Positions 703 through 19,234 of a stretch of 46,856 nt of DNA are shown piece after piece (position 1 is the first letter of the stretch; every line of letters starts with the position of its first letter). The notes under the pieces were generated by a model. The model was not told the DNA's origin. It did not search any database and worked only from the letters and a program-made list of their open reading frames with translations. Source of the DNA: Pelagibius litoralis (GTDB lineage: Bacteria; Pseudomonadota; Alphaproteobacteria; Kiloniellales; DSM-21159); NCBI GenBank assembly GCA_029287455.1, contig JARFRB010000006.1:1-46856 (forward strand). Direction: 5' to 3'. A program made the position numbers and the translations under genes.

Positions 703-1794
703 CTAGCCCTCCTCAGTTGTCTCGATCGCTTCTCGCTCCTCTTCCGGACTATCCGGGCCTTCCAGCATGGCGTCCGAAACCAATCCCGCGTTGGCGCGGA
801 TGGCTTGCTCGATACGTTGAGCAACTTCGGGATTGTCGCGCAAGAACTGCTTCCCGTTCTCCCGCCCCTGCCCGATCCGCTGGCCGTCGTAAGAGAACCA
901 AGCACCTGATTTCTCGACGATGCCGGCCTGTACCCCCAGGTCCAAAAGCTCACCCGTCTTGGAGATGCCTTCGCCGTACATGATGTCGAACTCGACCACC
1001 CGGAACGGCGGCGCGAGCTTGTTCTTAACGACTTTCACCCGAGTTTGGTTTCCGACCACGGTGTCGCGGTCCTTGATGGCGCCGATTCGCCGGATATCCA
1101 ACCGTATCGACGAGTAAAACTTGAGCGCGTTGCCGCCGGTGGTCGTTTCCGGACTTCCGAACATCTCACCGATCTTCATACGAATCTGATTGATGAAGAT
1201 CACTAAGGTTTTGGAACGGGAGATCGAGGATGTCAGCTTCCGAAGCGCCTGGCTCATCAGCCGCGCTTGCAGGCCGGGCTGCTGATCGCCCATTTCGCCT
1301 TCCAGCTCCGAGCGCGGCACCAGGGCGGCGACCGAGTCGATCACCAAGACATCGACGGCGCCCGAGCGCACCAAGGTATCGGCGATCTCTAGAGCTTGTT
1401 CGCCGGCATCCGGCTGGGAGATCAAGAGGTCCTCGACATCCACGCCTAGCTTCAGTGCATAGGTGGGGTCGAGCGCGTGTTCCGCGTCCACGAAAGCGCA
1501 GGTACCGCCGTTCTTCTGGGCTTCAGCGACCACATGCAAGGCCAAGGTGGTCTTGCCAGATGATTCCGGCCCATAGATCTCGACGATCCGCCCGCGCGGC
1601 ACGCCGCCGATGCCGAGCGCGATATCCAACCCCAGGGATCCGGTTGGGATCGTTTCCACCTGAACCACTTCACGTTGGCCAAGCTTCATGATCGAGCCCT
1701 TGCCAAAAGCCCGCTCGATTTGTGTAAGCGCCGCGTCGAGCGCCTTGTTTCTGTCCGCCGTATCTTTCACGAGCCGCAATGCCGATTCTGCCAT
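703..1794 (-). CDS. recA: RecA recombinase
   Basis: RecA is the ATP-dependent strand-exchange protein of homologous recombination and the co-protease that triggers LexA self-cleavage in the SOS response. The 363-residue product is full length. The Walker A motif GPESSGKTT lies at residues 75-83, and the core is followed by DNA-binding loop sequence ([17 protein letters not shown]) and the usual acidic C-terminal tail ([13 protein letters not shown]). The ATG at 1794 has a strong AAGGAGG site about ten bases upstream. The upstream gap contains a LexA-type box. recA is on the same strand as cckA, which lies about 160 bases upstream. Confidence 0.98.
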
Positions 1795-1953: not shown

Positions 1954-4383
1954 TCAGTGGGACGGCTCGTCCATCACTTCCTTCACTTTTCCGGCAAGCT
2001 GTTTGAGGCTGAAGGGCTTGGGAAGGAAGTGCAGTTCCTCGCCCTCGCCGAGTCGCTTGCGGAAGGAGTCCTCCGTGTAGCCCGAAATGAAGATCACCTT
2101 CATCTCAGGCAGCTGTTCGCGCACATGCTTCACCAAGGTCGGGCCGTCGATCTTCGGCATCACCACGTCGGTGATCAAGAGGTCGATTGCGTCACCGAAG
2201 CTTTCGTTTTCCCCGCCATTTAGCAACTCGAGCGCCGCTTCGCCGGAACGGGCCTCAAGCACGTTGTAGCCCTTATTGCGCAAGGCACGCGCCGAGAAGG
2301 CCCGCACCGCGTCCTCGTCCTCCACGAGCAGAACCGTGCCCACGCCGGTCAAATCCCGGCTCTCCTTCACTTCGACCTCAGCCGGGGCCTGACCGACGGC
2401 CTCGACGAACACCGGCAGATAGATGGAAAACGTTGTCCCGGCGCCCACTTCGCTTTCGACGAAGACAAATCCACCGGTCTGCTTGACGATGCCGTAGACG
2501 GTCGAGAGGCCAAGGCCGGTCCCCTCGCCCACTTCCTTGGTGGAAAAGAAGGGATCGAAGATGCGGTCCATGTTCTCGCGCGGAATGCCACAACCGGTGT
2601 CCTTGACTTCCACCAAGACGTAGTCGCCTCTGGGAACGGTTTCGCCCTTCTTGCGCAAGCCCTCCTCCAGAGTCACGTTTGACGTCCGGATCGTCAGTTC
2701 GCCGCCATTCTCCATAGCGTCGCGCGCGTTGACGGCAAGATTGATGATCACCTGCTCCAACTGGCCCTGGTCCGCCTTGACCGGGCCAAGATCGCGCCCA
2801 TGAACAACCTGCAGCTCTATGCTCTCGCCGATCAGGCGCCGCAGCAGGTGCGACAGCTCCGCGAGGATGTCGGTGAAGTTGAGCACGCGCGGCTGCAAGG
2901 TCTGTTGGCGAGAGAAGGCCAGGAGCTGCCGGACCAGATTGGCGGCGCGGTTGGCGTTCTGCTTGATCTGCATGATATCGGCGAAGGATTGATCCCCCGG
3001 CCGGTGACGCAAGAGCAGAAGATCGGAAAAGCCGATCATTGCCGTCAGCAGGTTATTGAAGTCATGGGCCACGCCACCAGCCAACTGCCCGACGGCCTGC
3101 ATCTTCTGGGACTGCGCGAACTGCGCCTCCAGGGATTTCTGCTCGGTCGCGTCCAACAGATGGGCGATGTAGCCGCTCGGCGCGCCCGCCGCGTCCTCGT
3201 AGGCTGTGAGCGAAAGCTGACAGATTACATCACGCTTGCCCGACAGCCGGATTTCATGCGCCTGCGGCGACACACCCGGTGCAGCGCCCTTGTTGGCCTG
3301 CTCCATGGCGGTCTCGACCGTGGGCCGGCCCTCCTCGCGGACGAAATCCAGGAAAGCACGCCCGACCACCTCGGCGCTGCCGACTCCCGTCAGTTCCAGG
3401 AATGCCTTGTTGCATTCGGTGACCTCCCCGTCCGAGTCGAGCTGGGCAATGCCGACCGGTGCTTCCTCGAAAAAGCGTTTGAAGCGCCGTTCGGAACGCT
3501 CCAACGCTTCGGCCGCCGCCTGCTCCCGGCTGAGGTGATAGACCACCGAGCGGGTGCGCAAGGTGGCCGCGTCCTCGACCTCGCCGGCGTCCTCATCGGC
3601 AGGTTCCGCGTCCGGGCCGCCGTCTTGCACCACGTCCTCGGAAATCAGAACCTTGAAGGCCTCACCGTCGGCGGCACGCAAATCAACCTCTCCCGCCTGC
3701 CCGCCACCGGCGAAGGCTTTATGGGCAGCGGTGCCGCGCTGGGGCGGCGAGGCGAGCAGATCATGCAGGCGCAGCTTCTCGACCAACTCCTCGGGCGAAC
3801 GGCCAAGCCACTCGGCCAGGGTTTCGTTCACGAAAAGGAAGCGCCCCTCGCCATCCACCGAATAAAATCCGATCGGCGCATGCTCCAGCAAATCGACGAA
3901 GCGCTCTTGCTCCTGCTCCACCATGGCTTCGGTCTGGCGGCGCAAGGTAACATCGTCGGCGAACCACAATACCTCGCCAGGCCAGTCCGGCAGTGGGTAG
4001 CAGACCACGTGCCGCCAGACCTCCTCGCCATCGGGGCCTTGTGTGCAAAGCTCGATCTGGCCGGGCAATCCATCACCGGCATTGTCCGCCATGCGGCGCA
4101 GTCGCGCCCGAGTCGCATTGTCATCCTTGGACAAGCTTTCGATCAGCAGGTCGGGAATGGGGCGGTCGGCGCTTCCGAATACCTCCCGAACGAAGGGATT
4201 TGAGTAGCGCACCCGACCCCCGGCGCCGACCACCTGACGCGGGCGCGGAACCGCCGCGATCGCTGCCTCGAGCAAGGCATTGCGCCTGAGTTGGCGGCGC
4301 ACGCTCCACCATGCGCCGGCCATGGCCGCCAAACCCAATACAATCAGAGCAATCGCCAGCGCACCCGCGCCTGGAAACGGCAT
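1954..4383 (-). CDS. cckA: Hybrid sensor histidine kinase CckA
   Basis: CckA feeds phosphate through ChpT to the master cell-cycle regulator CtrA, and acts as a phosphatase in its other state. The 809-residue protein starts with one clear membrane segment (residues 5-26), followed by a degenerate PAS region and two clearer PAS domains (about 160-260 and 300-420). The HisKA domain has the CckA-typical GGVAHDFNNLLTAMIGFSDL block with phospho-acceptor His440. The ATPase domain has NLAVNARDAM, DTGCGIP and GEGTGLGLS. The C-terminal receiver has LLITDVVMPK with Asp739. The ATG at 4383 follows a GGAGAG site. Caulobacter CckA has two membrane segments, so either this protein has one or a longer start was missed. 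From memory, cckA in Caulobacter sits directly after fliQ-fliR-flhB; here it lies about 120 bases after a fliQ scrap. Confidence 0.93.
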   Translation of the reverse strand: MPFPGAGALAIALIVLGLAAMAGAWWSVRRQLRRNALLEAAIAAVPRPRQVVGAGGRVRYSNPFVREVFGSADRPIPDLLIESLSKDDNATRARLRRMADNAGDGLPGQIELCTQGPDGEEVWRHVVCYPLPDWPGEVLWFADDVTLRRQTEAMVEQEQERFVDLLEHAPIGFYSVDGEGRFLFVNETLAEWLGRSPEELVEKLRLHDLLASPPQRGTAAHKAFAGGGQAGEVDLRAADGEAFKVLISEDVVQDGGPDAEPADEDAGEVEDAATLRTRSVVYHLSREQAAAEALERSERRFKRFFEEAPVGIAQLDSDGEVTECNKAFLELTGVGSAEVVGRAFLDFVREEGRPTVETAMEQANKGAAPGVSPQAHEIRLSGKRDVICQLSLTAYEDAAGAPSGYIAHLLDATEQKSLEAQFAQSQKMQAVGQLAGGVAHDFNNLLTAMIGFSDLLLLRHRPGDQSFADIMQIKQNANRAANLVRQLLAFSRQQTLQPRVLNFTDILAELSHLLRRLIGESIELQVVHGRDLGPVKADQGQLEQVIINLAVNARDAMENGGELTIRTSNVTLEEGLRKKGETVPRGDYVLVEVKDTGCGIPRENMDRIFDPFFSTKEVGEGTGLGLSTVYGIVKQTGGFVFVESEVGAGTTFSIYLPVFVEAVGQAPAEVEVKESRDLTGVGTVLLVEDEDAVRAFSARALRNKGYNVLEARSGEAALELLNGGENESFGDAIDLLITDVVMPKIDGPTLVKHVREQLPEMKVIFISGYTEDSFRKRLGEGEELHFLPKPFSLKQLAGKVKEVMDEPSH

Positions 4384-4504: not shown

Positions 4505-4575
4505 CACCGGCGCGCCGATCTTCAAGGTGACGATGATCGCCTCCGCGCGATCTCTATGACGTCGGTGGAGCTCAT
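4505..4575 (-). pseudogene. fliQ: fliQ remnant: first ~22 codons only, with a one-base frameshift
   Basis: Immediately after fliE, an ATG at 4575 (minus strand) opens a frame reading MSSTDVIEIAR. After loss of one base, the next frame reads EAIIVTLKIGAPV. Joined, these give the N-terminus of FliQ, the small membrane protein of the flagellar export gate. Similarity stops dead after GAPV; the rest of fliQ (some 65 codons) is missing, as are fliR and flhB, which follow fliQ in many relatives. The next gene is cckA. The remnant is too short and too shifted to encode a working protein. The assignment rests on recognised family sequence and on the flgB-flgC-fliE-fliQ gene order. Confidence 0.72.
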
Positions 4576-4623
4576 TCAAACAATCGGGCGTGGCAAGGCG
4601 GATCAAGAGCGGTAGGCGGCGGC

Positions 4624-4935
4624 TCAAATCGGCATCCGCAGAACCTCCTGATAGGTCTGTACGGCACGATCTCTCACGGTGACAACGGTTTGCAGGGTCA
4701 ATTCAGCCTTGGTCACCGCGATAACCACATCGTTTATGTCCGCTTTGCCGGCCGCTGCCTCGAGGGTACTGGCCTTCGCGGTTCGCAAAATCTCGACAGC
4801 CCGATCCGCCGCGTCGCGCAGGAAGCTCGCGAAATCGTCGCCGGCTTTGGCGTCCGGTCCCTTCACACCGGCCGCTTGTCCCTTCTCCGCCGCTTTGCGG
4901 TAGGCCGCGATGGCCTGGCCGAAGTTCACGGTCAT
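4624..4935 (-). CDS. fliE: Flagellar hook-basal body protein FliE
   Basis: FliE joins the MS ring to the proximal rod. The product has 103 residues, normal for the family, with the typical C-terminal half (DINDVVIAVTKAELTLQTVVTVRDRAV) that packs into the rod. The start is ATG 4935 (MTVNFGQAI), with AGGAG just upstream; an in-frame extension to 5049 lacks family similarity. It is the third gene after flgB and flgC on the same strand. The reading frame is intact, in contrast to the fliQ scrap that follows it. Confidence 0.88.
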   Translation of the reverse strand: MTVNFGQAIAAYRKAAEKGQAAGVKGPDAKAGDDFASFLRDAADRAVEILRTAKASTLEAAAGKADINDVVIAVTKAELTLQTVVTVRDRAVQTYQEVLRMPI

Positions 4936-4990
4936 CTCCTGCTCCTCATGGGCCGCCCCAATCAATCCTGGCTTGGCTCGGCACCCACGC

Positions 4991-5401
4991 TCATCCGCGC
5001 AGTATGCCAATGGTCTGCTCCAGCATGCCGCGGGTCGTCTGAACGACACGCAGGTTCGCCTCGTAGGACCGCTGCGCTTCTCGCATGTCGGACATTTCGA
5101 TCAACGCATTGACGTTGGCGGTCAACACGTGGCCGTCGCGGTCGGCGGCCGGATGGGCCGGCTGATTGCGGCAGCCAAATGGCGAGGCGTCGTTGCCAAT
5201 GCGCTTGACCTGCGCGAGATCCACCCCGCGCGCGCGATCGAGAACGGTCTCGAAGGTGATTGTTTTCTTGTGGTAGGGCTGTTCGCCGGGCGCCTGCGCG
5301 GTGAAGTTCGCGTTCGCCAGGCTCTCGGAAATCACCCGCAACCGTGCGCCCTGCACCCGCATTCTGGCGGCCGATATGTTGAGCGATTTGAACAAGACCA
5401 T
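4991..5401 (-). CDS. flgC: Flagellar basal-body rod protein FlgC
   Basis: FlgC is a proximal rod component exported through the flagellar type III apparatus. The product has 136 residues. The start is ATG 5401 (MVLFKSLNISAARM), which matches the family N-terminus; the frame is open further upstream only as overlap with flgB. Family landmarks are RVISESLANANFTAQ near the N-terminus, HPAADRDGHV in the middle, and MREAQRSYEANLRVV near the C-terminus. Some middle positions are unusual (GNDASPFGCRNQPAH), which may reflect relaxed selection, but the frame is uninterrupted. Confidence 0.92.
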   Translation of the reverse strand: MVLFKSLNISAARMRVQGARLRVISESLANANFTAQAPGEQPYHKKTITFETVLDRARGVDLAQVKRIGNDASPFGCRNQPAHPAADRDGHVLTANVNALIEMSDMREAQRSYEANLRVVQTTRGMLEQTIGILRG

Positions 5402-5427
5402 CGGTTCGATCCTTCGGTCGGTACCGC

Positions 5428-5838
5428 CTAGCGCGCGGTGCCGGTCAACACGAGGCAAAACAGCTTCACGTGCTTTGTGTAGAGATTCGTGACGAGTTGA
5501 CGATCCCCCTGCGTTGGCGCGACCTTCATCATCTGCTCCTCGACCACGACCGCATTGCCAGAGAGCGCGGTTTCATATCGCTCCCGGCTTTCCTCGCCGT
5601 TGAAGGTCGCGGCCGCGGTGGGGCCCTCGGCGATGTGCTTCGGATTGCTGGATCGCGGCGCGAGAGCCGGAGGGAATTCGGTGCCGAGAGCCCGGGTGAA
5701 AACCGGCTCCTGGAGGTCTAGTGGAACATATCTCGGTGTATCGGCGTTTGAAATGTTCCTTGCCAAGATAGACCGTCGCTGCGTCAGCCAGTCCATGCGC
5801 TTGGCCAAAAGGTCCAAAAGTCCGGGACTGCTCTGCAT
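5428..5838 (-). CDS. flgB: Flagellar basal-body rod protein FlgB
   Basis: FlgB is the most cell-proximal rod protein. The 136-residue product has the rod motif ARNISNADTPRYVP near the N-terminus and SGNAVVVEEQMMKVA in the C-terminal half. The last 15 residues (KHVKLFCLVLTGTAR) and the PTQGDRQLV segment differ from the usual family sequence although the length is kept, so the protein may be drifting. It is the first gene of flgB-flgC-fliE and is divergent from csrA across a 161-base AT-rich gap. Confidence 0.9.
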   Translation of the reverse strand: MQSSPGLLDLLAKRMDWLTQRRSILARNISNADTPRYVPLDLQEPVFTRALGTEFPPALAPRSSNPKHIAEGPTAAATFNGEESRERYETALSGNAVVVEEQMMKVAPTQGDRQLVTNLYTKHVKLFCLVLTGTAR

Positions 5839-5906
5839 TCATTGCTCCAACGGGGTAATGACTCAAAATTCGTTGTCCATCGTGGGCAATGGTGATCGCC
5901 TTCACA

Positions 5907-5921
5907 TTAAGAATCGGTAAA
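5907..5921. promoter_or_regulatory. Possible CtrA-binding site between flgB and csrA
   Basis: The sequence TTAA-GAATCGG-TAAA is a near match to the CtrA box TTAA-N7-TTAA. It sits in the divergent promoter region of flgB and csrA, where a CtrA site would make sense for an early flagellar operon. One half-site is imperfect, so this is only a candidate. Confidence 0.3.
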
Positions 5922-5999
5922 ACTTGTTTTTTCCAAGCGATCAATCATTATGTTGTGTAAAATGTAATTGTAAGTTTATCTTGAGACGGGCGGTGGGCG

Positions 6000-6296
6000 A
6001 TGTTGTATCTGACCCGCAAGATCGGCGAGTCGGTTATTATCAACGACGACATTGAAGTCACGGTCGTGGATATCCGGGGCAAATCGATCAAACTGGGCTT
6101 CACCTTCCCGGCGGATGCGAGCGTGCTGCGCCGTGAGATTTTCGAGCGCATCCAAGCAGAAAACCGCGCGGCGGCGGAGGCCGGGGGCGAAGCCTTGGCA
6201 GCGGCCCTAAGGCGGCCGGGCGGTCTAAAGAAAGACCGGGAGCCCGAGAATGAGCCGGCGCCCGAGAGCGTCGTGTCGAAAGTCGATCAATCCTGA
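6000..6296 (+). CDS. csrA: Carbon storage regulator CsrA, with C-terminal extension
   Basis: CsrA is a small RNA-binding dimer that blocks or stabilises target mRNAs, often those for flagellin and carbon metabolism. The core is complete: MLYLTRKIGESVIINDDI at the N-terminus, then VTVVDIRGKSIKLGF and REIFERIQ. The product is 98 residues, while most CsrA proteins have 60-75. The extra 35 or so residues are Ala/Gly rich, then charged and Pro-containing (RPGGLKKDREPENEPAPES), and probably disordered. The ATG at 6000 is set by the family N-terminus. It is divergent from flgB and upstream of two flagellar-type genes. Confidence 0.93.
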   Translation: MLYLTRKIGESVIINDDIEVTVVDIRGKSIKLGFTFPADASVLRREIFERIQAENRAAAEAGGEALAAALRRPGGLKKDREPENEPAPESVVSKVDQS

Positions 6297-6497
6297 ACTC
6301 GAAAGCCGGCACACATTCGTGTGGTGTTAGCCGCCCCGAAGCGTATTTCTTCCTGAACTTCAATCTTTAGTTAAGCTTGCTGGGCGAAAATGCCTCGAGA
6401 AACTTCCGAATTCGCTTCGGAAGAAATCTGGAATTCGAGGTGGATCGAGCATGCAGCCAAGTAAGAGGTTAGCGGCCCGACGCGCGGGGACCAAGCG

Positions 6498-6836
6498 ATG
6501 ACCGCGCAGCTCGCCGAACGCCTGACCGAATTGAACGAGGACATCACCGCGGCAAAGCTGCGGATCGCGGCCGGACAGCTGATAGACATCTCCTCTATCG
6601 AGGACGAGGTGGTGCGCTTGTGCACCTCGGCGGCTGAATTGCCGCAGCACGAAGGCAGGACCCTGCGCGCCGCGATGGTCGTGCTCTTGGCGGAGGTGGA
6701 CAGCCTCCAGCAAGAGCTTGTCAAAGCGCTAAGTGAAATCACCGGCGAGTTGGCGCGTTTGGGCCGCCAGAAACAGGCGAACTCCGCGTATGGGCGCCGT
6801 TTCGCGCCCTCGCCGATCAGCGGCCGACAGGACTGA
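6498..6836 (+). CDS. Coiled-coil flagellar-cluster protein (FlgN/FliT-like size), unassigned
   Basis: I do not recognise a named family with confidence. The 112-residue product is mostly helical and heptad-rich (QLAERLTELNEDITAAKLRI; LAEVDSLQQELVKALSEI), with a basic, Ser-rich tail. Its size and helical make-up, and its place just before fliO, would suit a flagellar assembly chaperone or export accessory protein; this is inference from context only. The start is ATG 6498. The frame is intact, and the downstream fliO remnant begins 22 bases after its stop. Confidence 0.6.
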   Translation: MTAQLAERLTELNEDITAAKLRIAAGQLIDISSIEDEVVRLCTSAAELPQHEGRTLRAAMVVLLAEVDSLQQELVKALSEITGELARLGRQKQANSAYGRRFAPSPISGRQD

Positions 6837-6858
6837 AGCGATCCGAGCCCAAGTGGCG

Positions 6859-7187
6859 ATGGACGTTTCCACCTACTTCAACTTCGTTGCCGCGCTCGCG
6901 CTAGTCCTGTGCCTTATAGGTATCCTGGCATGGATCGCCAAGCGGCTTGGCCTGGGCGGCCGCTTGACTGCTACCGCCCGAGGAGGCAGCCGGCGGCTTG
7001 GCGTAGAGGAAGTCAAGCCCCTCGATTTCGCCGCAAGCTGGTCCTGCTGCGCTGCGACGACCGTGAACACCTAGTGCTGCTCAATCAAGGCCAGGCTCCC
7101 GACCTCGTGCTGATTAGCCAAGCCCCCGCCAGGTCCGCGGCCGCGCCCGCCGACCAGAATCTCTTCATCCTGATCCAACAGCGCTGA
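6859..7187 (+). pseudogene. fliO: fliO, frameshifted near residue 60
   Basis: FliO is a bitopic membrane protein that helps assemble the FliP ring of the flagellar export gate. From ATG 6859, one frame gives MDVSTYFNFVAALALV with a membrane segment, then LAWIAKRLGLGGRL and RRLGVEEVKPLD, all typical of FliO. Right after PLD (about 7031-7035) the family sequence continues in another frame: RRKLVLLRCDDREHLVLL, ending at TGA 7187. Start to stop is 329 bases, one short of a multiple of three, so a single lost base explains it. The unshifted frame stops at 7074. No fliP follows; the next gene is on the other strand. Confidence 0.8.
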
Positions 7188-7273
7188 CCCAGTGCGCGGC
7201 GCGGTTTAACGGCGTCAGCGTGCTTCCTCCACCCCCAGCGGACCCCCGGTGGCCCCATCGCCTCGACGCAGAA

Positions 7274-10200
7274 TCACTCCGGTGTGGGATCCCCCCTCGC
7301 CTCCAGACCGGCGCGGTAACTGTCCATAAAAGCAAGCGCCGTATCCGACGCCGCCAACTGGGCGGCAAGCGAACCGGAGCGCGCAGTCGCGCTTTCGCCG
7401 GCGACGAGAACGAAGGCCTCCTTATGAGGCCCAAGCGCCATTGCCGATCCGTATGCTCGGCGCAATCCTTCCAGTTCTCCACCTGGATCGCCCGCCAGAG
7501 TCAATGCGATCGCCGTATCAAGAACGAGCCGGCTCGACGCCGCCGTAAGCGTCTCGCCGCTCCACGGTGGGGAAGGCAAAAGAGATGCCATCTCGCTAGC
7601 AACCCGCGGCCAATCGTTCAGCTGCCAGAAGATCCTGGCGCGCAGCGCACGGGTCCGCTCCGAGTCGTCGCCGTCCAGAAGCGCCAGCCCCTCGTTCGGG
7701 CGGCCCAAATCGACCAGCGCGCGCGCGCGCAAGCGGATCCTGCGATCCCGCAGTTCCTCTGGGAAAGCCGTATCGTCCGCACTGACGTCCAGGGCCTCCA
7801 GAGCAGCAGCCGGAAGGCGGTCGAGCATGCGGATCGTGGCAAGCCGCGTGCCCGTCGCCGCTTTCTCCATACCGGAGAGGCGGAACCGGACCTGGTGCTC
7901 CAAGAGGTCACCAGCCCGCTTAAGAAGATCCACCTCGACAAGGCGGTCGGCCAGATGCGCGATGAGGGCGTCGCCCTCGGGCCCGGCGGGCGTCAACTCT
8001 GGAAACTCGTCGTAAAGGGACAGCGACACCAGCGCCGGGAGCGGCGATTTGGCGCCTGGATCGAACGCCGCCAGAAAGACCTCGCACATTCTCGCCCCGA
8101 TCTCCTCGCCGCGCCGGCTGCCCGGAAAGTGCGTAGCCGCTTCCCGAAGGGCGCGCAGGGCCTGACGCGAGTCGCCTTCTGCTTGGTAGAGCTCGCTCAA
8201 GCGCCAAAGCAATGCGAACTCGAAGCCGTCGCCGCGCCACGCGAAGCGAAGCTTCTCCAGGGCGTCGATAGCCTTGCCATGCGTCAGGCTGCCGTTCTCC
8301 AGGCCAAAGCGAACCAGGGCCATCCGCGCACGCGCCGCCGGGGCGCCAAAGCCGTCCGCCGCCACCCGTTCGAATGCCTCGAGGGCGGAGTCCCTGTGCC
8401 CAATCTCCATCAAGCGAGACGCCTGCAGAAAGCCGAAGTGCGCCTTCTCCAAACTGGTTGTCAGCCGCGGTTGGACGTCATCCAGATCTTCCGCCGCGAG
8501 ACTAAGATCACCAACCATGAGGGCCGCTTCGGCGGCCGCCAGGCGCAGCCTAACTTGGACGCCCCGCGCGTAGTTGTCCATCAAGTCGCCAAAGGCCTGC
8601 AGCTTGCTGGCGGCCACGCGCCAATCCTGCCCCGCCGCGGCAAGCATGCCGCGCCAGAGGTCCGCCTCGGCTTCGTCCACCAGCGCGGGATGACCGAGCA
8701 AATCGGCGGCACGCTCGAAGTCGTCGACCAAGACCGCCGAAGCCGCCCGCATGAGCAAGCTGACGGCATCATCAGCGAAATCGGCGTCTTCCCGATCGAC
8801 CAGTTCCAGCAGGCCGAGGGTCTCGCTCGCCATGCCATAGGCGAAAAAGAAGCGCGCCAATTCAAGCCGGGCATGGGTCAGGCGTTCGCGCGGCGCCGAT
8901 ACCACGGCTCCTTGCAGGGTTTTCCGGCGCTCGTTGAAGGATTCAGGCGGCCCCTGCCGCCAGGCGGCCAGATCGAAGAGTCTTGATCGTGACGGCTGTT
9001 CCGCAAACTCTTCCGGTGACTCGTGCATGGCCGACAGGCTTGCTCCCTCGACCAGCACATCTACACTTTGCTTTGCAAGCGCGATCTCCACCCGGTCGCT
9101 CGCCGGTGCCAAGATCAGGCCCTGTGCGGAGGCCAGCACCGACAGGCCCTGAAAGCGCTGCGTCTTCGCCATCGCTTGCCCCGGACCGGACAGGGGCACG
9201 ACGGCGAGTTCTAGGCCAGTCGCCGGATCTTCCAGCGGAACGATCGTCAACGCCCCAAGGGCGGCGACCTTTAGAAATCGCTCGCCATCGCGGGTGACGA
9301 GCTTTGTGGGGATCGAGGCCGGCGCGGGCTCACCATGGGTTCCAAGCTCGATCAGCCAAGCGGTCCGGTCCCGGGCTAGGCGGACCTCGATCAAAGGCGC
9401 GACTTGGAAGCGAAGCACGGAAGCGTCCGCCTGCGTCGTCAGCGTCACCTCCTTGAGCCGGGGCGCTTCTTCAGCCAGACGCGCGTCGAAATTCGGCGGC
9501 AGATCGCGATCGAAGACCAGGATCACCTCGGAGGCACGCTGAAAGGCGGCCACGCCGGTCTCCTGCCCCCAATCGAACCGCAGCAAAAGCGGGCTAGGCA
9601 CAGAGGCCACGTAGCCTGGCCGAGCCTCGCGCGCGTAGGGAACCGGGTCATCCTCCACGCTGAACAGAAACTCCCCACGGTTTCGCCCACTCGCGACCTT
9701 GCTCTTGTGCGGGGCGGGCGCCAGCGGAACTGAAGCCGCCGCTCGCTCAATCGGGCCTACAGGCTCCACAAGGCTTTCAGGGCTCTCATCATCGACCACT
9801 CGTGGTTGTTCGGATTCGATTGCATCCTTTCCACCCGGCGGCCCGGACGAGAGAAGCGGCCCGGGAACTTCCAAGGGCGGGATCGGGGCGCTCGGAATGT
9901 CGTCCATTTCCAGGATCGACACGGTCGGTACTTCCACCTCCGGCGACTTGGCCTGAGGCTTCGGCCCTAGCGGCTCGGGCACCACAGCCGTGACCACCGC
10001 TCCCGAAACTTCTCGTCTGGGCGTGGTGTTCGCGTGCATGAAATCAACGACCACCCGTCCACCCAGTTGAAAGTGCTCTATGCGCGTCGACTTAACGAGG
10101 CCGAACGCGATCGACTTCTGGTCCGCGCCAACCCGCGGCAAGGTCACGTAGGCGGGAAGTTGCGAGCTGATCCTCGAGAGGTCGAAGACGCCCGGCCTCT

Positions 10201-10390
10201 CGAAGGCGACGATAAGCCGGTCGCCTCGCTGTTCGACCGTGTAGGAAAGCGGCCGCGGCCAATCGAAGACCATACGCCCGTGGTCGGAGTGAACCCCGCC
10301 TCGCACCCGCACGCTCTCTTGCGCGCCCGCGTTGCCCACAGCGAGCAGGATCGAGATGGCACAAGCTAGAACCCAGCGAACTCCAGTCAT
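7274..10390 (-). CDS. Large exported helical-repeat (TPR-like) protein of the flagellar cluster
   Basis: The 1038-residue product begins with a signal peptide (MTGVRWVLACAISILLAVGNAGA). Residues about 30-120 form a beta-rich, AMIN-like domain (VHSDHGRMVFDWPRPLSYTV; GGRVVVDFM). A Pro/Glu-rich linker, a second beta-rich stretch and a long C-terminal half of Ala/Leu-rich helical pairs resembling tetratricopeptide repeats follow. The start is ATG 10390, chosen for the signal peptide; the open frame runs to 10585 without similarity. Proteins of this layout sit next to motE and the DUF6468 gene in flagellar clusters of Rhodospirillales. It may act in the periplasm around the motor, but that is inference. 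The long frame has stayed intact among decayed neighbours. Confidence 0.75.
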   Translation of the reverse strand: MTGVRWVLACAISILLAVGNAGAQESVRVRGGVHSDHGRMVFDWPRPLSYTVEQRGDRLIVAFERPGVFDLSRISSQLPAYVTLPRVGADQKSIAFGLVKSTRIEHFQLGGRVVVDFMHANTTPRREVSGAVVTAVVPEPLGPKPQAKSPEVEVPTVSILEMDDIPSAPIPPLEVPGPLLSSGPPGGKDAIESEQPRVVDDESPESLVEPVGPIERAAASVPLAPAPHKSKVASGRNRGEFLFSVEDDPVPYAREARPGYVASVPSPLLLRFDWGQETGVAAFQRASEVILVFDRDLPPNFDARLAEEAPRLKEVTLTTQADASVLRFQVAPLIEVRLARDRTAWLIELGTHGEPAPASIPTKLVTRDGERFLKVAALGALTIVPLEDPATGLELAVVPLSGPGQAMAKTQRFQGLSVLASAQGLILAPASDRVEIALAKQSVDVLVEGASLSAMHESPEEFAEQPSRSRLFDLAAWRQGPPESFNERRKTLQGAVVSAPRERLTHARLELARFFFAYGMASETLGLLELVDREDADFADDAVSLLMRAASAVLVDDFERAADLLGHPALVDEAEADLWRGMLAAAGQDWRVAASKLQAFGDLMDNYARGVQVRLRLAAAEAALMVGDLSLAAEDLDDVQPRLTTSLEKAHFGFLQASRLMEIGHRDSALEAFERVAADGFGAPAARARMALVRFGLENGSLTHGKAIDALEKLRFAWRGDGFEFALLWRLSELYQAEGDSRQALRALREAATHFPGSRRGEEIGARMCEVFLAAFDPGAKSPLPALVSLSLYDEFPELTPAGPEGDALIAHLADRLVEVDLLKRAGDLLEHQVRFRLSGMEKAATGTRLATIRMLDRLPAAALEALDVSADDTAFPEELRDRRIRLRARALVDLGRPNEGLALLDGDDSERTRALRARIFWQLNDWPRVASEMASLLPSPPWSGETLTAASSRLVLDTAIALTLAGDPGGELEGLRRAYGSAMALGPHKEAFVLVAGESATARSGSLAAQLAASDTALAFMDSYRAGLEARGDPTPE

Positions 10391-10770
10391 CGCGCGCGCC
10401 CAACAATCGAGTTCACGGCCCCATCCATCCGCCGGTTCTCCGCATGCACGATGCTGTCCGAAATCCGCACACGTTCCGAGCGCTACCCCGGAAATGCTTC
10501 TTTTGCGGGCAAATTCTTGTATTATCTCTAGAATTGCGATCTGCAATTTCACCCCGATAACCATTCGCCCATACGACTTCAGCAACCCAAGCCACGCGGG
10601 CGAGCGACAATCCCCAGTTGGGTGGCAGACCTGGTCTTTCGGTGGCCATCGCTTCGCCGAGCACTCACACGCAACGGGCGTCGTCCAACTCTAGGTGCGA
10701 CAAGTAAAGACCGGGTAAATTTGCCTGTGCGGAGAGGTGAGCGCCGCACGCGCCAAGCGCGCCAGGGACC
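10391..10770. other. 380-base gap between motE and the TPR-like gene
   Basis: No convincing coding sequence was found on either strand, and I could not match the translated frames to a flagellar gene. It may carry the promoter of the TPR-like gene, or the scar of a lost gene. An AT-rich patch lies near 10500-10560. Confidence 0.4.
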
Positions 10771-11517
10771 TCAGTCGCGCGGGAACGGCAGGTCCCTGCG
10801 ATTGCTCAGTTCCACGGTCACTTCCTTGGCGCGCGAGGGCACCATTTCGGCGAGGATCGGGGCGGTCTTCCGCTCGCTCATCCGTTCGACCACGTCGAGT
10901 AGGACCGGCATTTCGAGTTGCTCGAAGATTCTGGCCGCGTCCTTCGGTTTCATGGTTTCGTAGATTTTGACCAGGCTTTGCAACTGAGCTTCCTCCTCCG
11001 CGTCGTACTGATTGACCAAGTCCTCGATCACGGAACGCAGGCGCTTAAGTTCCTCCAATTTTTCATCGATGCGGGTTTCCGCGGCCGCCAACAAGGCTTC
11101 CCGGCTTTCGACGTCACGCGCTCGGTCGTCCAGCTTCTGCCGCCGTTGAGACAAGGCTTGCAAAAGCTCGATCTCGCTGTCTGTCAGGGAGAACGGATCG
11201 GCCGGGAGTTCCGCGGGCAAAGCAGGTACCGTCGCGGACGACAAGGCTTCGCCGGACGCCGGCAGGGGGCCGTTGGCGGCCCCGGCGGCTTCGGTCTTGC
11301 CCGCCTCTGGCAGTGTCCGCGGTCCGGTTGCGGCACTCTTGGCCGGCTCCGCGTCCGTGGCACGAGGCGCCTTATCCTCGGCCTCCGCCTGGGGCGCGGA
11401 GCCCGTGGCCTGGCTTTCGCGCGCGACCGCCTCAATGCCTTGCATGAGCCCGTCGAGCCTGATCACGAGGGCTAAGGCGGCGACGGCAATAACGAGTGGC
11501 AGCAGCCCGATCCGCAC
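10771..11517 (-). CDS. motE: MotE-like flagellar motor chaperone (MgtE_N-type domain)
   Basis: MotE proteins are periplasm-facing chaperones of the motor protein MotC in Rhizobiales; the related family is common in alphaproteobacterial flagellar clusters. The 248-residue product starts with a membrane anchor (residues 4-21), then an Ala/Pro-rich linker, a coiled coil (about 115-175), and the conserved end: YETMKPKDAARIFEQL, ILAEMVPSRAKEVTVEL, NRRDLPFP. The start is GTG 11517 with a GAGGAGG-type site; the preceding DUF6468 gene stops at 11530, 12 bases upstream. The frame is intact. Confidence 0.82.
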   Translation of the reverse strand: MRIGLLPLVIAVAALALVIRLDGLMQGIEAVARESQATGSAPQAEAEDKAPRATDAEPAKSAATGPRTLPEAGKTEAAGAANGPLPASGEALSSATVPALPAELPADPFSLTDSEIELLQALSQRRQKLDDRARDVESREALLAAAETRIDEKLEELKRLRSVIEDLVNQYDAEEEAQLQSLVKIYETMKPKDAARIFEQLEMPVLLDVVERMSERKTAPILAEMVPSRAKEVTVELSNRRDLPFPRD

Positions 11518-11529
11518 CTTGCCACCTCC

Positions 11530-12189
11530 TCAGCGAATAGAATTCAAGGCGCGAAGAAGCTCGGATGCCGCGCCGCTATCATCCGCGCCAGCGCGCCAGC
11601 GCTTCTCGCCGTCAGGATCCTGGTTGACCGCCGGCTCGGCCACCGCGCTGTCGCGCTTCTTGCCTCTCAGTCGCTTCGCCAACCCGACCGGTTTATAGAA
11701 ATGCGGGCGCTTATCGGTTCCGGCGGACTGGACAGCTGTAGAGGGGGTTGGCGGCTCCACCGTACCGACGACTGTGTCCAGCGGTGCGGAATCACGCCCC
11801 TTCAGCGACGGCATCCTTGGCACTTCGTCTTCGTGCCCGGCGGGGCGGCGGGCTTGCGCGACAGCCTGTTCCAGCCGATCGGCCGCGGCATTGGCCTTGT
11901 CCAATAAGAAGCCCAGATCGTCGGAAAGCCTCTGGCCAGCAACAATTCGCTCCTCGACCAAGTCCACTTGCTTTTGCAGTGTATCGCCCGAACCCTCTGC
12001 CTCTTCCCGCACGGCAGCCAAACCGCGCTCGGCCCGGCTGGTCGCATCGTTGAATTCGGCGATGCAGCTCTCGATTTCTTCTTTTGAGCCTCTGAGCTGG
12101 GAGAGCTTGCGGTTGAGCAAAGCCGCGTAGGCAATCGTAGCGATCAGAAGAAGCGAAAGAAGCCCATCGGCAACGAGAGAAAGCGTCAT
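11530..12189 (-). CDS. DUF6468 flagellar-cluster membrane protein
   Basis: The 219-residue product has an N-terminal membrane segment (LVADGLLSLLLIATIAYAAL), a coiled coil over about residues 28-110 (LSQLRGSKEEIESCIAEFND; LVEERIVAGQRLSDDLGFLL), and a variable Pro/Lys-rich tail ending in SELLRALNSIR. This layout matches the DUF6468 family found between fliM and motE in Rhodospirillales flagellar clusters; its function is unknown. The ATG at 12189 follows GAGGAG. The upstream neighbour is fliL, with no fliM between them. Confidence 0.75.
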   Translation of the reverse strand: MTLSLVADGLLSLLLIATIAYAALLNRKLSQLRGSKEEIESCIAEFNDATSRAERGLAAVREEAEGSGDTLQKQVDLVEERIVAGQRLSDDLGFLLDKANAAADRLEQAVAQARRPAGHEDEVPRMPSLKGRDSAPLDTVVGTVEPPTPSTAVQSAGTDKRPHFYKPVGLAKRLRGKKRDSAVAEPAVNQDPDGEKRWRAGADDSGAASELLRALNSIR

Positions 12190-12321
12190 TTGTTAGTCTC
12201 CTCACCTCGTCTTCGGCGGTCGTAGCTTCCCAATCCGCTATCATGGCTTTTTGGGAGGGATCGGCTCCTTATGGTGTTTAGCCACCGGCATCGGACACGG
12301 CTTTAAGCTCCTTACGGGCGG

Positions 12322-12843
12322 CTACTGGACCAGCATTTCCCTAAAAAGCACGTCGCTGATCTTTGCGGGCCCAACGGCTGAGTTGACCCTAAATAGCAAC
12401 CCCTCTCGCAGACGCTGTATCCCCGCCAAATCGGCGAAATCCTCGATCCTGAGTTCGCGCAGGTATACTTGGAAGCTATCGACGATGCGCGGCTGCAGCT
12501 CGTCTAAGACCACTACGTCCTCCGAACCATTAAGTTCCAAGCTCACGGTAATCTTCAAGAACTGAGACTTACGGCCTTCAGTATTCAAATGCACCAGCAT
12601 TTCGGGCAGGTCATAGAAGACAGTGTCGAGAGAGCGTTCAGCGACGGCTTCCCCGTCCCCGCCAGCTGGAACAATGCTGCTTAGCATCCCGGAAAGGTAC
12701 AGCCCGGTACCACCTATCGTCATGAGAAAAAATGGAAGGAAAATGAATAAAAGAAGCTTGTTGCCGCTCACTTCTTTTCTTTTCGATGCAATACGGAGTC
12801 CGAAATTCTCGCCAATTGCCTCTTGCATGGTGGCGTCAACCAT
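12322..12843 (-). CDS. fliL: Flagellar basal body-associated protein FliL
   Basis: FliL is an inner-membrane protein that rings the stator units and supports motor torque. The 173-residue product has a short cytoplasmic start, one membrane segment (LLLFIFLPFFLMTIGGTGLYL), and the periplasmic domain with the family pattern FYDLPEMLVHLNTEGRKSQF, LKITVSLEL and VYLRELRIEDFADLAG. The start is ATG 12843 (MVDATMQEAIGE) with GGGAG about ten bases upstream; the frame is open to 12927 but that part overlaps flgH-like DNA. fliM should follow but is missing. Upstream, the divergent flgFGA genes known from Caulobacter are replaced by a flgH remnant. Confidence 0.9.
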   Translation of the reverse strand: MVDATMQEAIGENFGLRIASKRKEVSGNKLLLFIFLPFFLMTIGGTGLYLSGMLSSIVPAGGDGEAVAERSLDTVFYDLPEMLVHLNTEGRKSQFLKITVSLELNGSEDVVVLDELQPRIVDSFQVYLRELRIEDFADLAGIQRLREGLLFRVNSAVGPAKISDVLFREMLVQ

Positions 12844-12959
12844 AACCGCGCATCTCCCTGCCAGAAAAACGGAGAAACCGCTTAGATAATGAACGCAATG
12901 AGTTAAAATTTTCTTGAGCGCAAGCACCTAAACCAGCTCCCGCCACGGCAAGGGTCGCG

Positions 12960-13300
12960 ATTCCAAAGAGCCTCGTCGACGACGGATCGCTTCTGCGGTC
13001 CCGATGCAAAGGCAGGGTCGCGAGGGGGCAGGACGTCAACCTTCAGGTCGTAGCAACAGTGATCCATTTGCTGCCCACGGGAAACATGGTGATCTCCGGC
13101 CGACAGGAAATGCGGTGAATTTCGAGGTGCTCGAGCAGCAGGTGCTGATATCCTCCGCCCTGAGGATATCACCAAGGTGAACACCATATCTTTCGAGCAG
13201 ATCACCAAAGCCCGAATCGCCAATGGCGGGCGCGGCTAAGTCACCGACGTGCTTCAGTCGCACTACAGCTGCCAGCAAGTTTCGAGATCTTTTAACGTTC
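12960..13300 (+). pseudogene. flgH: flgH 3' remnant with two frameshifts and a stop
   Basis: FlgH is the lipoprotein of the flagellar L ring in the outer membrane. Plus-strand frames here give its C-terminal half in pieces. One frame reads GQDVNLQVVATVIHLL then PTGNMVISGRQEMR and stops at TGA 13116. With one base restored the text continues VNFEVLEQQVL. After a second shift near 13153 it reads RPEDITKVNTISFEQITKA then RIANGGRG, a TAA at 13237 where the family has Gln (CAA to TAA), and VTDVLQSHYSCQQV. No start, lipobox or N-terminal half was found; possible weaker similarity begins near 12885. The gene is dead. Confidence 0.85.
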
Positions 13301-13382
13301 TAAGCAAATCTCTTGCGTCTCGCGTAAAGGTGGCAGCAGATCAGCGCCGCGCGAGCGTAGCGAGCCTCGTTGCAACGAAACC

Positions 13383-13808
13383 CTAGTCGTCGCGGTGCGT
13401 GCGCTCCATGCGCTCGTGCCGCTCCTGGGCTTCGAGAGACAAGGTCGCGATCGGACGGGCCTCGAGCCGCTTTATGGAAATCGGCTCGCCGGTGTCCTCA
13501 CAATAGCCGTAACTCTTGTCCTCGATCCGGTCCAAGGCTTCATCGATCTTGTTGATCAGCTTGCGTTCCCGATCGCGGGTTCGCAGTTCCAGGGACCGGT
13601 CGGTCTCCAGCGAAGCCCGGTCGGCCAGATCCGGCTCGGCCAAGCTCTCTTCTTGGAGGTGATTGATCGTTTCTCCGGATTCCCGAAGCAACTCCAGCTT
13701 CCAGCGAAGCAGCTTATGCCGAAAATACTCCAGCATGCGCGCATTCATGAAAGTTTCGTTCTCGGAAGGACGGTAATCAGGGGGCAGTGTTGAAGTCATT
13801 TTTTGCAT
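13383..13808 (-). CDS. dksA: RNA polymerase-binding transcription factor DksA
   Basis: DksA binds the secondary channel of RNA polymerase and acts with ppGpp to reset transcription during starvation. The 141-residue product has the coiled-coil arm (YFRHKLLRWKLELLRESGET) with the tip region DLADRASLETDRS, then the globular end YGYCEDTGEPISIKRLEARP. Only one of the four zinc-finger cysteines of E. coli DksA is present, which is usual for the alphaproteobacterial form. The start could be ATG 13808 or the internal ATG 13799 (MTSTLPPDYRPS). From memory, dksA often lies beside flgH and fliL in this group, as here. Confidence 0.95.
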   Translation of the reverse strand: MQKMTSTLPPDYRPSENETFMNARMLEYFRHKLLRWKLELLRESGETINHLQEESLAEPDLADRASLETDRSLELRTRDRERKLINKIDEALDRIEDKSYGYCEDTGEPISIKRLEARPIATLSLEAQERHERMERTHRDD

Positions 13809-13973
13809 GCCATCCCATATCGCCAGGCAATTCGGGGCGGGAGTATAGGCAATTTGCCCTTCCCGGCAAGCCCCGATCGCATTCGCCCAAATCCTTCGAA
13901 TGGCAGAGGTTTTTTGGAAAATTGAGGTATTGCGTAGTGCCTTCGAACGAAGCCCTACGAGATCTGCCTCCTG

Positions 13974-14371
13974 CTAGCGGCCAAGCTTGGCAAGTTCCAC
14001 GGCAGCACGCAGCTCTATTTCGTCGAGAATTCGATCCAAGCCAGGGTCGGCGCAGCTTTGGCGCTGGCGCGCCACCAAGGCGCCAAGCCGTTCCAGCCGG
14101 AACAGCGGCACCCGCCCAAGAAGCAGCGCGTCCCGGAGGCCGTCGGGCTCGTCGAGCAGCAGTTCTCCAGGCTTACGGGCCCGGCTCCGTCGGCAGTGGA
14201 TTGTAAAGCGACGAGGGCCTCGACCGCCGACACCGGGCGGCCAGGCACCGTTCGCACCCGTGGCCCCTGCCCACGCAGCTCGCTGGCGAAGCCTGCGGAA
14301 GACGGTGCGGCCGAGCGCGGTTTTCCACGCGATGCCAATGTCCTGGAAGGTTTGGAGGACTCGATCTTCAT
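13974..14371 (-). pseudogene. fliX: fliX, frameshifted in the middle
   Basis: FliX controls the flagellar regulator FlbD and couples assembly to class II gene expression. From ATG 14371 the frame reads MKIESSKPSRTLASRG and on to VSAVEALVALQST, as in FliX. After about 14205 the family sequence continues in another frame: CRRSRARKPGELLLDE, GLRDALLLGRVPLFRLERL, and ILDEIELRAAVELAKLGR ending at TAG 13974-13976. The span is 398 bases, one short of a multiple of three, so one base appears to be lost. The unshifted frame runs on as unrelated sequence to 14015. Confidence 0.82.
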
Positions 14372-14429
14372 AGCCGAAAGCGATCGAAGCAATGGCGCCC
14401 GCCGCGCCAGAACGCCAGGAGAATTTCGA

Positions 14430-14753
14430 TCAGACGCCGCGCCGCGCGCCACCGGCCCGCTTGGCCGCTTCGTTCCGGATCCGGCTGCGCTGGCGCAAAA
14501 GCTCCGTCACGGCACGGGCCGCCCCCGGCGATTCGTGTAGCCAAACCGTCAAAAAGTTCGCCTCGTCCACGTCGCTGTCGTTGTAGCCAATGGCAATTCC
14601 TTCGCCCGACAGGGACACGACAAGACCGGCAAGCCCCGCTCGCTCCAGCCAAAACGCCGGATCGACGGCCAAGAACCGGGCGGCGGCTTTGGCAACGATG
14701 GCCGGATCGGTGTCCTGCCAGCCCGCTTCGCTGTTCGTCGGGGTATCGCTCAT
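14430..14753 (-). CDS. Conserved-looking hypothetical protein upstream of fliX
   Basis: I do not recognise this 107-residue product. It starts MSDTPTNSEAGWQDTD and has a compact mixed fold (AKAAARFLAVDPAFWLERAG; LVVSLSGEGIAIGYNDSDVD; LTVWLHESPGAARAVTELL) with an arginine-rich tail. ATG 14753 is preferred over an in-frame ATG at 14777. Its stop lies 58 bases before the fliX start on the same strand. No signal peptide or membrane segment is visible. Confidence 0.5.
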   Translation of the reverse strand: MSDTPTNSEAGWQDTDPAIVAKAAARFLAVDPAFWLERAGLAGLVVSLSGEGIAIGYNDSDVDEANFLTVWLHESPGAARAVTELLRQRSRIRNEAAKRAGGARRGV

Positions 14754-15286
14754 TCGTCGTTCTCCCGCAAGGTCCATGAGGTCGAGCCTCCGCCCAAATC
14801 ACGCACAAAGGGTTAACGCCGCCTCGAGAGGTTGGGAATTTCTTGCCCTACCCTGGAATAACTCGCCGCCCTCCCGCCGACCTTCTCTAGCTCCAGAAGC
14901 CCAGCCAGAACCCATAAGCACCTCATTTTATTTAATATTCACGAAGCCACCCACTCTGGCATGGGTCGCGCTAGGCAGTGTTCGGACACAATTGCCACGC
15001 GCCCCAAAAATTTACTCGCTGGGGCAAAAACCATGATTTCAGCTTTCACCGATTACCTTTCGAACATGTTGTCGGCGGGTATCATGGCAGCCGTTAGACG
15101 AGACTATTAGCACCGGATCAAACCGACACCTCAAGATGTGTGCCATTAACTATTTATGCGCGATTTTTTAAGAATTTAAATAACCTATGATTTTACTAAA
15201 TCTTAAGGTATCCCGAGAATATTCGATCGTGCAGGGAGCTGAAATACCAGCCCACTAAACGCAAAATCGGGGAGCAAGGCACGCAG
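14754..15286. other. Intergenic region upstream of sciP
   Basis: About 530 bases with no supported gene. The last 180 bases are strikingly AT-rich for this genome (15100-15210) and probably hold the sciP promoter. I found no flagellar remnant that I could defend here. Confidence 0.5.
15192..15206 (+). promoter_or_regulatory. Possible CtrA box upstream of sciP
   Basis: TTTA-CTAAATC-TTAA differs at one position from the CtrA consensus TTAA-N7-TTAA and lies about 80 bases before the sciP start in AT-rich DNA. In Caulobacter sciP is transcribed under CtrA control, so a site here is expected. This is motif and position only. Confidence 0.35.
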
Positions 15287-15568
15287 ATGTCGAGCAATGA
15301 AATTATTCGTAGAGAGCATTTAATCGGTCCAGAGGGACGTTTTGTGACGCTTGAGGACCTGCCACCGCCCGGCACGCGACGCTGGGTCATCCGCAGAAAG
15401 GCGGAAGTTGTGAAAGGCGTGCGCGCTGGCCTGTTGACCATAGAGGAAGCTTGCGCGCGTTACGCGCTCTCGGTGGAGGAGTTCCAATCCTGGCAAGCGC
15501 TTATCGACAAGCATGGCGTTCGCGGCCTGCGGACGACTCGCTTGCAGCAATATCGTCATTCTGCCTAG
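15287..15568 (+). CDS. sciP: CtrA inhibitor SciP (DUF1153)
   Basis: SciP is a small helix-turn-helix protein that binds CtrA and blocks its recruitment of RNA polymerase, limiting CtrA activity after division. The 93-residue product has the family signature: RFVTLEDLPPPGTRRWVIRR, KAEVVKGVRAGLLTIEEAC and YALSVEEFQSWQALIDKHG, ending GLRTTRLQQYR. The length is normal. The ATG at 15287 gives a complete N-terminus. In this group sciP often lies among flagellar genes; the fragment after it is the end of flhG. Together with intact cckA this suggests the CtrA circuit still works. Confidence 0.93.
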   Translation: MSSNEIIRREHLIGPEGRFVTLEDLPPPGTRRWVIRRKAEVVKGVRAGLLTIEEACARYALSVEEFQSWQALIDKHGVRGLRTTRLQQYRHSA

Positions 15569-15659
15569 GAACCGCAGACTTCCTCCAAGTAACCTAGTGA
15601 CGATCAAATGGCGGAAGAGCAGTTGCTCTCCGCCCAATTCTCACACCGTAGCTCACTAG

Positions 15660-15908
15660 CCTTCCAGATACCTTCGGATTGTCTTTTACATGACGACCTC
15701 AGAGAACGAGGCGCGGCCCACCGACGGCACCCTTGCGAGGGCCTGCGAAACCTTTCTCCAAGTTCGGCCACCGCTCGCGGCGATCGTGCACCGGGATCCC
15801 TTGGTCAAGGACTGCATTCGCCACCAAGCGCCCATGCTGACCCGCCACCCCAACGCCACCGCCGCGACGGATATCCACAACCTTGCCCGCGCGCTCGCCG
15901 CCGAGTGA
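15660..15908 (+). pseudogene. flhG: flhG (MinD-like flagellar number regulator) 3' remnant
   Basis: After an in-frame stop at 15657, the frame reads RYLRIVFYMTTSENEARP, then LARACETFLQVRPPLAAIVH, then KDCIRHQAPMLTRHP and ends TDIHNLARALAAE. This is the C-terminal end of the MinD/ParA-type ATPase FlhG (also called FleN or YlxH), which sets flagellar number with FlhF. The Walker motifs and the N-terminal two thirds are missing. An ATG at 15690 could give a 72-residue peptide, but it falls inside the conserved core and so is not a natural start. Confidence 0.72.
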
Positions 15909-17981: not shown

Positions 17982-17992
17982 GCCGCCCCCTT

Positions 17993-18034: not shown

Positions 18035-18035
18035 A

Positions 18036-18057: not shown

Positions 18058-18077
18058 CCCGGCCGGCGCCAACCTCC

Positions 18078-19202: not shown

Positions 19203-19234
19203 CGGACAGGCGGTATTGCTAGACATGGAATGAA

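Follow-up and report, generated by a model that had tools for sequence, protein, structure and literature searches.

How does a flagellar gene cluster disappear from a genome, and what becomes of the genes within it that are left standing? These questions are raised by a stretch of 46,856 nucleotides from Pelagibius litoralis (the window), which is the entire contig C20 of a draft genome (G000; 3.63 Mb in 141 contigs, 96.3% complete) and carries broken and open flagellar genes side by side. Our analysis indicates that the window very probably holds the scar of a flagellar supercluster that once spanned ∼52 kb and eroded piecemeal, with its regulators spared, in a now non-motile lineage, and that the flagellar open reading frames (ORFs) still present are mostly leftovers. 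In itself, flagellar decay is nothing new; in a cluster that stands between intact and gone, each lesion can be read in place.

Seven gaps in a collinear flagellar cluster

The ancestral order and the gap sizes were taken from G001, a relative with a single-contig genome. Its order is recA, cckA, two small genes, flhB, fliR, fliQ, fliE, flgC, flgB, csrA, an ORF of 114 amino acids (aa), fliO, fliP, a 156-aa ORF, the exported scaffold gene, two motB-like genes, a cheZ-like gene, cheY, motE, the DUF6468 gene, fliM, fliL, flgF, flgG, flgA, flgH, dksA, fliX, flgI to flgL, fliW, fliD, fliS, flagellin, flgE, sciP, fliF to flhF, and flhG. Most of these names are presumptive, from position and sequence; FlhA, FliE, FliP, FliG, FliL and the rod proteins of G001 were named by Pfam matches. 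From cckA to the start of flhG this cluster spans 52.3 kb, compared with 11.5 kb from cckA to the flhG remnant in the window. What remains is collinear with nine relatives (G001, G006, G002, G007, G009, G004, G003, G008 and G011), over the length that their contigs cover. Some four fifths of the cluster DNA has been lost, in seven separate gaps that total 40.8 kb on the G001 map, on which their limits were placed by eye:

Gap 1, 3.6 kb: fliQ 3' end to cckA (rest of fliQ, fliR, flhB and the two small genes missing)
Gap 2, 1.3 kb: fliP and the next gene
Gap 3, 2.8 kb: motB to cheY
Gap 4, 1.1 kb: fliM
Gap 5, 3.2 kb: flgF to the 5' half of flgH
Gap 6, 18.3 kb: flgI to flgE
Gap 7, 10.5 kb: fliF to the 5' part of flhG

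These gaps agree with an initial annotation of the window, made from its letters alone, in which fliR-flhB, fliP, fliM (most of which is indeed missing) and flgFGA were absent at the joints. That annotation had further proposed a stepwise loss of motility by small deletions instead of one excision. The seven separate gaps bear out the stepwise part, but two of them measure ∼10 and 18 kb and are not small. It had not mentioned the missing blocks that flank sciP, with flgI to flgE on one side and fliF to flhF on the other.

The joints carry remnants of fliQ, motB, fliM, flgH and flhG. Broken genes were searched for by frameshift-aware alignment with the proteins of relatives, using one reference per gene (two for flgH) and three shuffled controls each:

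4508..4575, minus strand: fliQ remnant that breaks off after the first 23 residues and contains one frameshift (weakly supported: score 41, shuffled 23-27)
6859..7127, plus strand: fliO, near full length with one frameshift (score 168, shuffled 25-31); fliP and the next gene are missing downstream
10560..10625, minus strand: C-terminal motB fragment of 22 residues (score 51, shuffled 27-42; modest)
∼12200..12253, minus strand: N-terminal fliM remnant (score 50, shuffled 25-30)
12966..13281, plus strand: flgH remnant, C-terminal half with two frameshifts and one stop (score 213, shuffled 29-36)
13980..14350, minus strand: fliX, near full length with one frameshift (score 193, shuffled 36-49)
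15660..15908, plus strand: flhG remnant, C-terminal part only and without a frameshift; right border of the ancestral cluster

For flhG, the alignment over 15660-15776 scored 98 against 26-32 for shuffled sequence with a reference that ended at residue 223, and a tblastn match with G007 extends to ∼15908. The five breaks recognized earlier (fliQ, fliO, flgH, fliX and flhG) thus all scored above their controls, while the motB and fliM remnants are new. For flhB, the two small G001 genes, fliP, cheY, flgG, flgA, flgI, a 161-aa ORF, flgE and flhF, each aligned at a single place, no remnant stood out clearly from the shuffled controls. Taken together, the locus combines collinearity with intact relatives and the truncations, frameshifts and stops of an eroded cluster.

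Since G000 is a draft of 141 contigs and several lesions are single frameshifts, read from the assembly and not from reads, we considered whether the lesions and gaps could be sequencing or assembly errors in a strain with a normal flagellum. This is very improbable: a single contig carries all seven gaps in order, the rest of the cluster is collinear, flgH has several lesions, and key missing genes are unmatched in a 96% complete genome. Sequencing error had already been argued against in the initial annotation, on the grounds that the rest of the window would be free of frameshifts, and a simple assembly artefact does not account for the locus. Six ORFs beyond 22.5 kb were scanned, and each matches a Pfam family over the cut-off, with nearly the whole profile covered in only two of the six.

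Genome-wide searches of G000 gave no match for flagellin, FlhA, FliP, FliG or CheW and none for Flg_bb_rod at E 0.001 (flgB of the window scores below this), whereas FliE and FliL had one match each, both within the window. Four named control genomes matched in each of the flagellin, FlhA, FliP and FliG searches, relatives were positive for FlhA, FliP and FliG, and nine of the 12 family genomes, among which G000 alone represents its genus, were positive in each of the Flg_bb_rod, FliG and CheW searches. Across the order, FlhA was found in 47/58 genomes, FliE in 53/61, FliP in 50/61 and FliL in 53/61; when FlhA, FliE and FliP were tallied jointly over 58 genomes, all three were missing from eight, and G000 alone combined a FliE match with the lack of FlhA and FliP. 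A functional flagellar set, taken as FlhA, FliP, FliG and flagellin, was therefore not found in G000, and because these proteins and CheW are unmatched in its genome the cell should be non-motile. Some alphaproteobacteria have two flagellar systems, and an old duplicate with a working cluster elsewhere in the genome would also leave a decaying locus. We consider this extremely improbable here, as the same searches show no match for FlhA, FliP, FliG, flagellin or CheW and the scar sits at the ancestral place beside recA and cckA. The description of the loss as recent is not supported: the other flagellar and chemotactic genes searched for are already gone genome-wide. The loss could be of any age, with synonymous sites saturated in comparisons with the closest relatives. 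CckA identity to the nearest named relatives (Pelagibius, Kiloniella, Fodinicurvata, unclassified Kiloniellaceae and Rhodospirillaceae) is 57-60%, which would place the organism near Kiloniellales.

Genes left standing between the gaps

The following genes are open or intact from the left anchor of the cluster to sciP:

703..1794, minus strand: recA, intact, left anchor (87% identity to G001 recA, at the same place)
1954..4383, minus strand: cckA (histidine kinase), intact; bounds the ancestral cluster on the left (58-62% identity to the CckA proteins of nine motile genomes of the family)
4624..4935, minus strand: fliE, open (PF02049, 76.4 bits; the sole FliE match of the genome)
4991..5401, minus strand: flgC, open (65% to G001; PF06429, 48.2 bits, cut-off 23)
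5428..5838, minus strand: flgB, open (50% to G001; by alignment with relatives, PF00460 giving 15 bits, below the cut-off of 20.7)
6000..6296, plus strand: csrA, intact (NCBIfam NF002469, 76.8 bits, cut-off 73)
6498..6836, plus strand: 112-aa ORF, intact (38% to the 114-aa ORF upstream of fliO in G001, an equivalent place; a FliT resemblance is sub-threshold, PF05400 giving 15.5 bits, cut-off 29.5)
7274..10390, minus strand: 1038-aa exported beta and TPR protein, putative MotK/PflA-like motor scaffold, open (42% to the G001 homologue)
10771..11517, minus strand: motE, E-ring type with an MgtE_N domain, open (57% to G001; PF03448, 26.4 bits, cut-off 25.9; FlbB equivalog model 36.5, below the cut-off of 110)
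11530..12189, minus strand: DUF6468 gene, open (PF20072, 61.7 bits; 220 codons including the stop, 149-176 in nine relatives)
12322..12843, minus strand: fliL, open (PF03748, 62.1 bits, cut-off 24.6; NCBIfam equivalog NF009420 107.4, below 197)
13383..13799, minus strand: dksA, intact (PF21157 and PF01258; 82% to G001)
14430..14777, minus strand: orphan 115-aa ORF between the fliX remnant and sciP (no Pfam match, and no match among 58 other genomes of the order)
15287..15568, plus strand: sciP (CtrA inhibitor), intact (NCBIfam NF051866, 132.6 bits, cut-off 100)

The seven flagellar ORFs from fliE to fliL had been reported as open before, and they are; csrA, the 112-aa ORF, dksA and sciP are additions to that list. 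In motile family members, too, cckA adjoins flagellar genes. The DUF6468 protein is 44-71 residues longer than in the nine relatives, and the extra length is a C-terminal tail.

The arrangement suggests that the embedded regulators act as fixed points and would set the limits of the deletions. Erosion would have taken at least seven separate deletions as well as small lesions; any deletion running through cckA, csrA, dksA or sciP, or recA beside them, would not have been kept, and the loss would therefore have gone joint by joint between the regulators. The genes fliE, flgC, flgB, motE, the MotK/PflA-like scaffold gene, the DUF6468 gene and fliL would then mostly be leftovers that no lesion has hit yet, presumably without a present job.

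The scaffold protein, whose export was called by eye only, was modelled with AlphaFold2 from 26 sequences (mean predicted local distance difference test score, pLDDT, 80.9). In the model, a helix (residues 6-18) is followed by beta domains as far as residue 447 and by a helical solenoid over 474-1031. Its best Foldseek match in the PDB is 9hmf_K, chain K of a Campylobacter jejuni periplasmic motor scaffold (E 3.7e-11), with a template modelling (TM) score of only 0.14-0.18. The matches listed by VIA-align are solenoids, mostly over 476-813, and 9hmf_K is not among the 50 listed; Pfam gave no AMIN match at E 1. Parts of PMC13023049 and PMC10954123 describe MotK of Cereibacter as an AMIN and TPR protein that partners MotE, and report a structural likeness between MotC, MotK and PflA. 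By context and architecture, we take the 1038-aa protein to resemble a MotK/PflA-type motor scaffold and partner of MotE, with membership putative. The locus is like the MotE/FlbB/FlgY E-ring systems with their TPR partners MotC/MotK/PflA/FlcB, as far as these sources portray them, in having motE and an exported beta and TPR protein in one flagellar cluster, and differs in that both genes outlive their motor. The cluster also poses the question of whether FliL and a MotK-type scaffold serve any function once the motor is gone.

To gauge selection, changes were counted in columns invariant in the other (motile) genera, for the seven flagellar genes and five controls (recA, cckA, dksA, csrA and sciP). 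G011 served as a reference and was not tabulated as a target. The partial fliE and scaffold of G011 were left out, as was the 112-aa ORF (too few orthologues), and G009 lacked recA, and G002 dksA and sciP, in the stretches used. In G000, 59/437 flagellar and 21/754 control columns had changed, a ratio of 4.85, compared with 1.42-3.14 in eight motile genomes. Per gene, the counts were 14/61 for fliL, 6/32 for flgB, 7/62 for flgC, 5/33 for fliE, 3/28 for DUF6468, 5/63 for motE and 19/158 for the scaffold; the controls gave 6/53 (sciP), 6/256 (recA), 8/307 (cckA), 1/91 (dksA) and 0/47 (csrA). The fliL fraction is about twice the highest motile value and those of flgC, fliE and sciP are highest by narrow margins, while the G000 fractions for flgB, DUF6468, motE and the scaffold are equalled or surpassed in some motile genomes. 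When distances were scaled to those between motile genera, the values were 1.52 for fliL, 1.42 for sciP, 1.27 for flgB and 1.22 for flgC, and 0.76-1.00 for the other eight genes. A codon branch model was saturated, the G000 branch running to 10 (flagellar) and 7.7 (controls), so that its ratios of nonsynonymous to synonymous rates (dN/dS) of 0.065 and 0.036 are unusable; in this saturated model, likelihood-ratio tests for a separate G000 value gave 0.5 and 3.6, respectively. Selection thus appears clearly relaxed in fliL alone and slightly relaxed in flgB and flgC, with no clear sign of relaxation in fliE, motE, DUF6468 or the scaffold.

Several of these results weigh against the view that the open genes are mere leftovers. 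The flagellar fraction of G000 (0.135) lies inside the motile range of 0.074-0.197, and the ratio of 4.85 is high because the G000 controls are slowest, their fraction of 0.028 being the lowest of nine; sciP, used as a control, is itself fast. Moreover, no clear acceleration over motile genomes is seen for fliE, motE, DUF6468 or the scaffold. The lesions are concentrated in four short genes, with 6.5 kb of neighbouring ORFs lesion-free. In a post hoc test with event counts read by eye from the frameshift-aware alignments, such clustering had P = 3.5e-5 (seven events), 0.0017 (five) or 0.010 (four) under one uniform rate, and 0.0012, 0.020 or 0.080 for the same event counts when the scaffold was left out, a hint of continued protection for some of the open genes. 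Some of them could then be retained for a task outside the flagellum; FliL and the MotK/PflA-like periplasmic scaffold, for instance, could act at the cell wall. The lesion-free ORFs beside broken ones and the lack of acceleration of the scaffold in G000 favour this idea, but fliL is the most relaxed gene of all, and we regard such a task as possible though rather unlikely. Erosion, with most open genes as leftovers, remains our preferred reading.

Flagellar losses elsewhere in the order and in other bacteria

In a tree built from RecA, part of CckA and DksA, g6 (G005 and G010) groups with FlhA- and FliP-bearing Fodinicurvata-type genomes at 100% and G000 groups with g5 at 72%; deeper nodes are weak, and G013 and G020 fall inside another family. 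Because of these separate groupings, the losses in G000 and g6 look independent. Separate non-flagellated lineages of the order have collapsed forms of the same neighbourhood: cckA adjoins recA in g6, in a stretch where no queried flagellar gene was found, dksA adjoins recA in G016, and kinase-like matches lie between in G013 and G020.

A second partly collapsed flagellar locus was seen in genus g23 of another family, in the loci L126, L128 and L129 of G038 and G041, with fliL, cheY, scaffold, fliW, csrA, dksA and sciP kept. These genomes, which are 69 and 72% complete, have no FlhA, FliE or FliP match; the absence of other flagellar genes rests on the two partial genomes and the collapsed locus. 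The order in G038 is fliW, dksA, a peptidase-like ORF (by eye), fliL, cheY, scaffold, csrA and cckA, while G041 has sciP, fliW and dksA on one contig and fliL, cheY and scaffold on another. Beside sciP in G041, a FliJ-family gene is also kept (L128:8927-9355, plus strand; PF02050, 37.4 bits). The loss of fliM, flgI and flgK in g23 predates the split of G038 and G041, because the two align across these stretches, whereas in L131, which comes from another genome of the family, fliM adjoins fliL and fliX-flgI-flgK adjoin dksA. Between G038 and G041, YN00 estimates of dN/dS were 0.23 for fliL, 0.05 for cheY and 0.18 for the scaffold (NG86: 0.44, 0.20 and 0.31). In motile pairs, YN00, which gave no value in 11 of the 26 tried, yielded 0.055-0.066 for fliL (three of four pairs computable) and 0.09-0.14 for the scaffold (two of four).

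The g23 junctions without fliM, flgI and flgK are common to both genomes, and the motor would therefore have gone before they split, with fliL, cheY and scaffold still open, under purifying selection, and near csrA, fliW and cckA. This makes g23 the best lead for a non-flagellar role of these three genes. FliL, a CheY-type receiver and an AMIN/TPR scaffold might then form a module that outlives the flagellum for another cell-envelope task, with G000 at an earlier stage of the same road, a proposal that we hold only tentatively and think improbable on balance. Survival of the trio in an arrangement without fliM speaks for it, as do the low YN00 values. However, the NG86 estimates are higher, the dN/dS of fliL is roughly four times as high as in motile pairs, the G038 scaffold lacks its TPR half, the other six genomes without FlhA, FliE and FliP also lack FliL, and both g23 genomes are far from complete.

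Two further comparisons were set aside. Seven loci (L019, L023, L024, L031, L040, L041 and L046) have sciP, dksA and cckA adjacent without queried flagellar genes between. They were not counted as an end state of erosion, since flagella elsewhere in those genomes were not searched for, L041 has an flhF match beside sciP, and another ancestral order is possible. We also gave up the idea that g1 and g23 had retained the same genes more often than chance would allow, as an overlap of two genes is not striking.

Comparable losses have been described in other bacteria. According to part of PMC3826837, Xanthomonas fuscans 4834-R and other xanthomonads are likewise non-motile through loss of part of the flagellar cluster, and frameshifts make up 81 of the 137 pseudogenisations in 4834-R; there, however, a single 33-kb deletion is involved and the group still has motile strains, whereas G000 has seven gaps interleaved with spared regulators. 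A tree-wide survey of flagellar loss (PMC12199754, in part) also discusses partial sets as possible remnants. It uses protein presence and counts, and states that such presence/absence data do not reveal in what order the losses took place, whereas in G000 the place and kind of each lesion are readable. Non-flagellated Caulobacteraceae are another case of convergent loss in alphaproteobacteria, but their flagellar and chemotaxis genes are completely absent, and the portion of PMC12700997 concerned describes no intermediate cluster, while G000 keeps a partial one. A further study of gene-wise loss names Rhodospirillales among its orders; by its authors' statement, in the part available, its pipeline takes no account of synteny and cannot distinguish a complete system from a degenerate remnant. 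In the accessible portions of the open PMC literature on flagellar loss, we found no description of the G000 cluster or of a FliL-CheY-scaffold set without flagella.

Two observations concern the rest of the window. Directly after the flhG remnant, at 15913-20917, lie ABC transporter genes and a GMC-type oxidoreductase gene (by eye only). At 46341-46808 (minus strand), 48 bases from the contig end, an ORF for a LuxR-type regulator starts within the receiver domain and is either cut by the contig end or broken.

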